A DNA stretch of 64,000 bases. Origin: Granulicella cerasi. GTDB lineage: Bacteria > Acidobacteriota > Terriglobia > Terriglobales > Acidobacteriaceae. This document shows, piece by piece, positions 36,788 to 38,382 of the stretch. Every line of letters begins with the position of its first letter. Within the stretch, counting starts at the first letter, position 1. Where the stretch lies: NCBI RefSeq assembly GCF_025685575.1, contig NZ_JAGSYD010000002.1:868001-932000 (forward strand), written 5' to 3'. Below the pieces are notes generated by a model. It made no database searches. It saw nothing but the letters and a program-made list of their open reading frames with translations, and had not been told where the DNA came from. The position numbers were made by a program, and so were the translations under genes.

Positions 36788-37183
36788 TTAGACGCTGAAG
36801 CTCGAACCGCAACCGCAGGTCGACTTCACCTGGGGGTTCTCGAACTTGAAGCCAGCGGCCTCGAGCGTTTCGACATAATCCACCGTGCAGCCGTTCAGGT
36901 ACATCGCGCTGGTCGCGTCGACGAAAACCTTCAGGTCGCCCACGTTGACGATCTTGTCCATCATGCCGGCGCCGTTCTCGAAGCTCATCGAGTACTGGAA
37001 GCCCGAGCATCCGCCACCGACCACGCCGATGCGCAGACCAGCCGGGATCGGGTCCTGCGTCGCCATGATTTCCTTGACCTTCGCGACCGCCGAGTCCGTG
37101 AGAACCACAGGGCCCTTCGCAGGAGCGCCGGTTACGACTTCGGGTGCGGTTACCACTTCAGGAGTCACAGATGCAGTCGACAT
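36788..37183 (-). CDS. erpA: A-type iron-sulfur cluster insertion protein
   Basis: A 131-aa ErpA/IscA-type scaffold. Cluster ligands are Cys59 in VGGGCSGFQY and Cys123 and Cys125 in TCGCGSS, exactly the A-type set. VDATSAMYLNGCTVDYVE is also characteristic. An extra N-terminal about 20 residues rich in Val/Thr/Ala precedes VVLTDSAVAKVKEIM. It passes Fe-S clusters to apoproteins. ErpA and IscA cannot be separated with certainty by sequence alone. A terminator follows. Confidence 0.88.
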   Translation of the reverse strand: MSTASVTPEVVTAPEVVTGAPAKGPVVLTDSAVAKVKEIMATQDPIPAGLRIGVVGGGCSGFQYSMSFENGAGMMDKIVNVGDLKVFVDATSAMYLNGCTVDYVETLEAAGFKFENPQVKSTCGCGSSFSV

Positions 37184-37316: not shown

Positions 37317-37487
37317 ATGCAATTCCTCGACTTTCTGGCCTCCGCGTTCATCAATACCTTCGGCATCACGCAGCCGACGGAGAAGACGCGTCGCCACGCG
37401 TCGTACTTCATTCTGTCGCTGCTGGTGCTGACCGGGGTGGTGATGATCGTCGCCGCCGTCACGTACTTCCGCGTTCTCCGCAGTTAG
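37317..37487 (+). CDS. 56-aa membrane protein with FGITQ motif
   Basis: MQFLDFLASAFINTFGITQP, then a basic segment (TEKTRRHASY) and one membrane helix (FILSLLVLTGVVMIVAAVTY). It shares FGITQ-x(n)-charged-helix with the 57-aa protein at 29146-29319. There is no strong SD; the coding call rests on composition, the second family member and the clean helix. Function unknown. Confidence 0.55.
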   Translation: MQFLDFLASAFINTFGITQPTEKTRRHASYFILSLLVLTGVVMIVAAVTYFRVLRS

Positions 37488-37605
37488 TCCCTGGGTCTAC
37501 CGGGCGACCGACTGAAATCACTTTCGTGACATCGCAACGCGGTGATTTGCATCACTGTGCAACTTTTGTGCGGGGGCGTAGTCTTCACCTAGTAGTAAAG
37601 GCCCG

Positions 37606-37679
37606 CCTTACCTCCCGAGCCCGGTTCTCGGACTCGCCTGGTATCCCGGACCAGAACGCTTCGCTTCTGGGGGACCACC
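37606..37679 (+). promoter_or_regulatory. Structured leader of the first tandem membrane-protein gene
   Basis: GGTATCCCGG at 37640-37649 is followed by hairpin CCAGAA-CGCTTCGC-TTCTGG (37651-37670); the SD GGGGGA at 37669-37674 begins in the 3' side of the stem. The same order of elements occurs before the paralogue at 38110. Confidence 0.65.
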
Positions 37680-37964
37680 ATGGATTTCATGCAAATCGCT
37701 ACAGCCCTTTGGGCAATCGCCCTCGCCGCCTTCACGGTCGCGATGGTTTACCGTGCCCACCTTACTCAGCATGAGGTGGACGAGCTCTTCCTTTCCGACG
37801 AAGACGGCAGCAATCTCCATCATCAGGAGCAGGAAGAGATCGTTCGTCGTGTGAATTGGATCCACCCGTTTTGCCGCGGTGCAGGCGCTGCCACTGCTGC
37901 TTTGACCCTGCTGATTGTAGGTGTCACCGTAGCGCGCGCGCTGCCGTATGTGCACTTCCACTAG
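37680..37964 (+). CDS. Small two-helix membrane protein, tandem paralogue 1
   Basis: A 94-aa protein of no family I recognise. Helix 1 (ALWAIALAAFTVAMVYRA, about 8-25), then an acidic, His-rich loop with DEDGSNLHHQEQ and EIVRRV, and helix 2 (AATAALTLLIVGVTVARAL). The loop is nearly identical to that of the next gene, while the helices differ more, so the loop is likely the functional part. DEDG followed by HH and acidic residues might bind a metal; this is speculation. The ATG has GGGGGA six bases upstream. Confidence 0.7.
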   Translation: MDFMQIATALWAIALAAFTVAMVYRAHLTQHEVDELFLSDEDGSNLHHQEQEEIVRRVNWIHPFCRGAGAATAALTLLIVGVTVARALPYVHFH

Positions 37965-38037
37965 GCTGCGAGATTTTTTGCAAAAAGTCGTGACACGCGG
38001 AGGAAGTGCGGCGTATGCTTCCCCCGCTTCACGGCCC

Positions 38038-38109
38038 AGCCTACCTCGCGCGCCGAACTTCTGACGCACCCGGTATCCCGGCCAGACTTCGCTCTGTGGG
38101 GATCTTCCG
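38038..38109 (+). promoter_or_regulatory. Structured leader of the second tandem membrane-protein gene
   Basis: GGTATCCCGG at 38072-38081 followed by hairpin CCAGA-CTTCGC-TCTG(T)GG (38082-38099) and SD GGGGA. Upstream CCTACCTC also matches the first leader (CTTACCTC). About 70 bp are recognisably related. Confidence 0.65.
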
Positions 38110-38382
38110 ATGCAAACCTTCGCTTATTCGATCTGGGGTATTTCGATCGCGGCATTCGTCATTCTGATGGTGTACCGCGCCAACCTCACCAATCACGAAA
38201 CTGATCAGCTCTTCCTCGGCGACGAGGACGGCACGAACTACCACCACCAGGAACAGGCAGAGATTGTGCGTCGCGTTGACCGCGTGACCACGTACTGCCG
38301 TGGCGTGGGTGGAGTCGCTGCGCTCACGACCATCGCCGTGGTCGGTCTGGTCGTTCACAACATCGTGCACACGGCGTTCTAA
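38110..38382 (+). CDS. Small two-helix membrane protein, tandem paralogue 2
   Basis: A 90-aa paralogue of the gene at 37680, 145 bp downstream. MVYRANLTNHETDQLFLGDE continues as DGTNYHHQEQAEIVRRVD, matching paralogue 1 in most positions of this loop. Helices are SIWGISIAAFVILMVYRA and AALTTIAVVGLVVHNIV. A conserved Cys precedes helix 2 in both (FCRG / YCRG). Each gene has its own leader copy, so they are probably regulated alike but separately translated. Function unknown. Confidence 0.7.
   Translation: MQTFAYSIWGISIAAFVILMVYRANLTNHETDQLFLGDEDGTNYHHQEQAEIVRRVDRVTTYCRGVGGVAALTTIAVVGLVVHNIVHTAF

Follow-up and report, generated by a model that had tools for sequence, protein, structure and literature searches.

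RNA thermometers of the FourU and ROSE type hold the Shine-Dalgarno (SD) sequence in a pairing of low stability, the partner strand being rich in U or in mismatches, and translation-controlling riboswitches combine, within a 5' UTR, conserved internal-loop bases with an SD-containing hairpin that follows them. Gene regulation is poorly known in Acidobacteria, which abound in soil. Comparative genomics has furthermore yielded a set of orphan RNA motifs, the table of which includes Acido-1 and Acido-Lenti-1 from Acidobacteria, both marked there as not cis-regulatory (PMC2864571). The locus described here lies in a stretch of 64,000 nucleotides of the Granulicella cerasi genome (contig 2, positions 868001-932000; hereafter the window) and carries two tandem genes for small membrane proteins, each preceded by its own leader. 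Like the orphan cis-regulatory motifs of that set (PMC2864571), the leader is a conserved block that was recognized by comparing genomes and that precedes a single gene family; unlike Acido-1 and Acido-Lenti-1 as tabulated there, it is proposed to act in cis, and it has no match in Rfam 15.

With translation-controlling riboswitches, the leader would share its place in a 5' UTR, its conserved internal-loop bases and, in Granulicella, a hairpin with the SD after them, but in the genomes searched here it accompanies one gene family. With FourU and ROSE thermometers it shares a hairpin that overlaps the SD, whereas its widely conserved core lies elsewhere. The leader looks like a new orphan cis-regulatory RNA candidate to which no Rfam family corresponds: Rfam 15 gave no match at the curated threshold in the window and only one tRNA in 15 leader-bearing loci, and permissive scans of the window leaders and one further locus (L194) returned nothing better than matches at E-values of 2.3, 7.2 and 8.3. 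A literature search on titles and abstract openings found no description of the leader or the protein. A ribosomal-protein leader was considered and rejected, since the downstream gene encodes a two-helix membrane protein without a Pfam or NCBIfam family.

Specifically, copy 1 (37680..37964, + strand, with a second in-frame ATG at 37689) encodes a 94-residue two-helix membrane protein of no named family, as judged from the ORF list, profile searches and hydropathy, and copy 2 (38110..38382, + strand) encodes its 90-residue paralogue, with 55% identity over residues 4-83. An earlier sequence-only reading had described two genes of these lengths without a known family, and this description is borne out: both open reading frames are present, and searches of Pfam, NCBIfam, PHROGs and PDB sequences with both proteins returned scattered weak matches only, none of them credible. 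Judged by curated cut-off or solved structure, neither gene matches a known protein family. The same reading had proposed a shared loop between differing helices, which agrees with the identity between the copies: 27 of 37 residues are identical over residues 24-60 of copy 1, that is, the loop including its edges, against 20 of 52 elsewhere, so the loop is kept better than the helices. Each window protein has two hydrophobic segments, and 77 of 83 family members pass a crude hydropathy test. The helices are joined by a charged loop, some 42 residues long, with a mean of 5.3 K/R, compared with 0.8 at the ends, and of 7.5 D/E; its richness in K/R suggests, by the positive-inside rule, that the loop is cytoplasmic. 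For copy 2, AlphaFold predicts a plain helical hairpin with long helices at residues 2-37 and 45-89, at moderate confidence (mean pLDDT 69.7, pTM 0.40).

The protein is widespread in its family of bacteria. A profile built from 32 homologues (A3) detects it in 25 of 28 sampled Granulicella genomes and in 346 of 398 sampled Acidobacteriaceae genomes, spanning 72 of 79 genera and mostly in single copy. Beyond the Acidobacteriaceae it becomes scarcer: a single-protein query at E<=0.01 matches 8 of 14 genomes from another family in the order and, from further families of the class, 4 of 10 genomes, several of these matches being rows of A3 themselves. Of 297 genomes drawn across the whole phylum, 31 have a match at E<=1e-6; 29 of these are Acidobacteriaceae and two belong to another family of the class (f6). 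A divergent gene for an A-type Fe-S carrier (36788..37183, - strand; PF01521 above cut-off) recurs as a neighbour across many genera: its relatives, grouped as cluster c0, occur in 51 of 109 neighbourhoods of the protein family (tandem copies counted apart), 50 times upstream and on the opposite strand. These neighbourhood counts are lower bounds, since the crude ORF picker took overlapping antisense frames, also over the Fe-S carrier gene of the window. A GGCSG motif is found in all 51 c0 members, and the c0 representative holds a stretch nearly the same as the PF01521 protein of the window. Beyond the Fe-S carrier gene, genes for type IV pili or secretion were recognized by eye; a link of either kind of neighbour to the small membrane protein is suggestive only. 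Between the Fe-S carrier gene and the first leader there is also a 56-residue open reading frame with a hydrophobic stretch (37317-37487, + strand), which has no Pfam or NCBIfam match above cut-off.

Both leaders lie on the + strand directly ahead of their genes. The leader RNA of copy 1, taken through the ATG, spans 37599..37682 and scores 70.2 bits (E 2.5e-14 in its genome) against covariance model R1, that of copy 2 spans 38032..38112 and scores 58.4 bits (E 3.0e-11), and both are training rows of R1. Upstream, the best -10-like hexamer of copy 1 is the weak TAGTCT at 37579..37584 (+), and copy 2 has TATGCT at 38014..38019 (+); both are putative -10 boxes. The core of leader 1, predicted to fold into a hairpin of helices P0, P1, P2 and P3, occupies 37599..37656 (+) and reaches 56.6 bits (E 3.9e-10) in the core-only model R2, of which it is a training row, while the core of leader 2 (38032..38088, +), not a training row, scores lower, at 31.1 bits (E 0.0011). 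In the predicted fold of leader 1, the P1 strand UACC (37609..37612, +) pairs with GGUA (37640..37643, +), as it does in the fitted alignment. P2 encloses P3 within 37616..37636 (+), P2 pairing 37616-37619 with 37633-37636 in the predicted fold and in another register in the models, and P3 pairing 37621-37623 with 37629-37631. The P4 hairpin CCAGAA...TTCTGG (37651..37670, +; strands 37651-37656 and 37665-37670) overlaps the SD GGGGG at 37669-37673, and a P4-like hairpin in copy 2 (38082..38103, +) runs into the SD GGGGAT, where the predicted fold of this leader also pairs AUCCC with GGGAU. The minimum-energy fold shows the proposed hairpin for copy 1, with P2 in a shifted register, and not for copy 2; compared with shuffled sequence, the leaders fold with z-scores of -1.35 (copy 1) and +0.44 (copy 2). 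The motifs CxTACCTC and GGTATCCCGG, which the sequence-only reading had placed in both leaders, are indeed there; the CCAGA...TCTGG hairpin that it had likewise assigned to both, running into the SD, is exact in copy 1, whereas copy 2 reads CCAGA...TCTGTGG.

An alignment of the regions upstream of homologues reveals a block of approximately GGCCC.GCCUACC..CGAGCCCG..loop..CGGACCCGCYCGGUAUCCCGGACC. For the comparison of leaders 67 loci were chosen, leaving out near-duplicates, two non-family matches known at that point and loci without clear leaders. Model R1, which was built from 20 Granulicella leaders only, finds the leader at E<=0.1 in 71 of the 398 Acidobacteriaceae genomes and in 16 of 79 genera. 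Within Granulicella, 20 of the 21 matches with E<1e-8 are the model's own training rows, so that only the matches outside the genus are independent. There, 51 of 53 places lie upstream of the same protein family, and 45 end exactly at its ATG. Two places outside the genus (G119, L244, E 0.093; G150, L271, E 0.076) and one inside it (G019 contig 10, L245, E 0.018) have no family gene, and these weak matches are probably due to chance; R1 matches within Granulicella at E 0.2-10 and away from family genes were left out, save that on G019 contig 10. Model R2, built from 56 leaders, finds 88 places at E<=0.01, in 82 of 398 genomes and 15 of 79 genera, and all 88 lie upstream of a gene of the protein family. 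While 64 of them were already known, 24 are absent from the R1 list, and 23 of these are not training rows of R2. Before R2 and alignment A6 were made, 15 of 71 leaders had been removed as atypical rows or near-duplicates, which flatters both the R2 search and the pairing test on A6. At least one leader was checked in each of 15 genera, Granulicella included. An exact core pattern matches five times in the 28 Granulicella genomes, always at leaders of the protein family, and its reversal not at all; among 299 genomes drawn across the class, the 22 with a leader match are all Acidobacteriaceae.

As is characteristic of structured cis-regulatory RNAs, the block thus keeps its place ahead of homologous genes in several lineages, and its recovery by models across genera indicates that it is not a product of chance. 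Most homologues have no detectable leader, as R2 finds it in 82 genomes and the protein occurs in 346; the model searches used strict filters and scored few candidates per genome, so weak copies will have been missed. A subclade of Granulicella keeps the gene without a recognizable leader core. Among nine such coreless leaders (L041, L042, L045, L047-L050, L052 and L062), six hold the exact CCAGA...TCTGG hairpin, and the rest have the TCTGG half at the SD.

We propose a fold made up of a single irregular hairpin, with P0 at the 5' end followed by P1 (UACC/GGUA), P2 and P3, and a separate hairpin, P4, near the SD. Compensatory change is seen in P3: alignment A4, which is fitted to the R1 structure, contains 56 distinct stems, among them CTGTG/CACAG, CAGCT/AGCTG, CCGGA/TCCGG and CCGCT/AGCGG, which form a mean of 3.20 Watson-Crick pairs, compared with 2.54 when strands are re-dealt (sd 0.10, maximum 2.91 of 5000), in a test that places the strands by the fitted A4 and ignores relatedness. 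The P3 loop is very variable in length, and mainly through it the full-length core matches of R2 span 52 to 90 nt, as a hairpin allows. In P1, 96.7% of helix cells are paired over 71 leaders (A4), and the helix varies so little that covariation neither supports nor refutes it. P2 (CGAGC/GCUCG) often has an A-C mismatch, and its second pair is broken in 32 of 67 scored leaders (A4). A switch of P0 from CGG/CCG to CCG/CGG is weak evidence, because the CCGG of the 3' side pairs either way.

In the sequence-only alignment of 56 chosen rows, the proposed structure pairs 77.1% of cells, compared with 23-40% when it is slid along, and 67 cells show changes on both sides, compared with 38 in shuffled data and reached by none of 500 shuffles. 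On this alignment the structure counts beat all 500 shuffles on three of five measures, the other two being reached by 56 and 67 of the 500, and on the fitted A4 they do so on all five. A tree-aware G-test for covariation, run on an alignment that was likewise made without structure, yields no significant pair (best E about 10). RNAalifold finds no pair in the 71-row alignment; in 61 chosen rows, with 10 of the 71 left out, it finds only P1, weakly, and a portion of P3 (-1.33, against a mean of -0.05 and a lowest value of -1.09 for shuffled columns). When 49 of the 71 rows are arranged by hand into eight lineage groups, the 5'-end hairpin with P2/P3 appears in five, with differing details in P0 and P1, and is absent in three. 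The folding energy of the core is close to that of shuffled sequence (mean z -0.78, below -2 in 6 of 71 leaders). The covariance check that had been called for therefore gives a divided answer: P3 shows compensatory change, whereas P1 is nearly invariant, P2 imperfect and the tree-aware test null.

Several explanations compete with regulation by the leader RNA. That the leaders resemble each other merely as a relic of recent duplication, free of selection, might be supposed for genes that are tandem paralogues, yet in the protein tree each window copy pairs with its own counterpart in two other genomes (G006 and G009), and these groupings are fully supported; the tandem duplication therefore predates these species. 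A second paralogue, present in other Granulicella, groups with proteins of other genera, and several have the leader as well. Four genomes of genus g48 (G177, G251, G295 and G313) have tandem copies with a leader each, and 74-93 nt separate the end of the second motif from its gene. Leaders are, moreover, usually kept better than coding DNA: among 700 random pairs drawn from 66 leaders (five of the 71 were left out, their model match not ending at the ATG), 611 have a 60-nt core of higher similarity than their coding sequence, and in the most diverged bin the core stands at 0.70 against 0.59 (41 of 41 pairs) and 0.57 for DNA further upstream, which stays at 0.57-0.63 across the comparison. Together, the leaders of other genera, the protein tree and the similarity of core and coding sequence refute recent duplication, which we regard as practically negligible, and these comparisons indicate that the leader is under selection. 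The sequence-only reading had itself named the absence of the leader from homologues elsewhere as what would reduce the similarity to duplication; given the checked leaders in other genera, this test leaves RNA-level control unrefuted, whereas most homologues indeed have no copy that could be detected. Quite improbable as a shared function is an RNA thermometer or simple SD-sequestering hairpin formed by the CCAGA/TCTGG stem, although the exact stem (CCAGA-N4..24-TCTGG) occurs in 14 of 36 Granulicella leaders, compared with about 0.1% per leader in dinucleotide shuffles, and predicted folds leave little of the SD unpaired (median 0.15). The stem is found in none of 51 leaders outside Granulicella, the CCAGAA/TTCTGG of the window is not of the U-rich FourU type, and SD pairing is only slightly above shuffled controls (unpaired 0.162 against 0.192, below the control median in 44 of 68 leaders). 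In genus g50, furthermore, three genomes have the ATG 124-127 nt beyond the point where the R1 match ends, and in nine more it lies 125-168 nt past the core end, compared with usually 10-24 nt at the other R2 loci of the same check (exceptions of 47 and 87 nt, both in g51). In 61 of 71 leaders the motif begins 8-12 nt after the end of a -10-like hexamer, which was sought only just upstream of the motif and counted without a shuffled control. The position of the motif thus appears to follow the transcript's 5' end rather than the ribosome site, which speaks against plain SD occlusion as its common function. What the sequence-only reading had singled out, the CCAGA/TCTGG hairpin as the conserved element and a thermometer as one possible control, is accordingly replaced by the 5' hairpin P0-P3 upstream, beside the -10-like box, as the most widely kept part; its broader claim of RNA-level control is supported by the spread of leaders over genera and from the conservation of the core, whereas the stem it named is a feature of Granulicella.

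The main rivals are a constitutive structure and a site at the DNA level. In the former, a 5'-end structure would protect the mRNA from 5'-dependent decay or fix the rate of translation, with neither signal nor partner; this is possible, though doubtful. Such a role would fit a motif at the presumed 5' end instead of the SD, outer helices that are partly variable in the sequence-only alignment, and a gene as common, and as regularly single, as one that is steadily expressed; the bases drawn as unpaired (the ACCC/ACUU bulge and UAUC), however, look kept across genera beyond what a stabilizer needs, and none of the checked R2 places precedes any other gene. Improbable, in turn, is that the block is a transcription factor site just downstream of the promoter, with RNA pairing incidental. 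The block does begin directly after the -10-like box, the tree-aware covariation test is negative, and P1 is nearly invariant, for which reason its conservation cannot separate RNA from DNA; against a DNA site stand the conserved halves split by a very variable loop and the P3 stems, which are rewritten and still complementary.

The explanation that we prefer, with a probability of roughly 0.55, is a gene-specific leader RNA acting in cis, which would bind a ligand or protein and thereby adjust expression of the small membrane protein. The sequence comparisons show that the block is conserved, specific to one gene family, placed next to a -10-like box and subject to compensatory change in P3; its action as RNA, its regulation and an output in translation or mRNA stability are inferred. 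Each gene would be transcribed from its own promoter, and its 5' UTR would be the conserved structured RNA, comprising the 5'-end hairpin P0-P3 with its conserved internal-loop bases and then, in Granulicella, a shorter hairpin that includes the SD. Most likely, the leader RNA would act in cis after transcription has started and set the amount of the small membrane protein, the conserved internal loops probably binding the ligand or protein and the output presumably being translation or mRNA stability. As to how the SD might be reached, it sits in P4 of the window leaders, and inspection by eye identified no conserved alternative pairing. A switch in which CCUCC near the 5' end pairs with the SD was also judged by eye and rejected, as neither Granulicella nor g48 retains these bases. 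At twelve g50 loci (L218, L222, L236, L246-L249, L251, L254, L262, L265 and L270), more than 100 nt of additional sequence lie between the core and the ATG, and the core still lies beside the -10-like box.

A leader in at least 15 sampled genera, together with a near-universal unnamed membrane protein, provides a handle both on regulation in Acidobacteria and on the protein itself. The leader suggests that the amount of this small membrane protein is important and could serve as a reporter in the search for the signal, and the covariance model is a starting point for a candidate new Rfam family. A bolder version of our preferred explanation, which we consider speculative and unlikely, is a riboswitch-type class of the Acidobacteriaceae in which a leader anchored at the transcription start binds a small molecule or ion through its internal loops and controls the near-universal membrane hairpin protein, with diverged leaders perhaps forming a second subtype. 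Specifically, 30 homologues from genera without a confirmed leader (L133-L162) all have TATAAT 56-109 nt before the ATG. R2 leaves such diverged leaders unrecognized, with a single match at E 0.34 over 46 loci of which these are 30, and no common structure emerges over all 30 (energy 0). By eye, many of them share the layout GGGCCCYYACCC ... GGGACCGGCUC ... GAGGUGGC, and nine chosen by eye form an outer GRGCC/GGCUC and an inner CCC/GGG helix at -7.5 kcal/mol in a run without a control; this group of diverged leaders may represent another subtype of the element.
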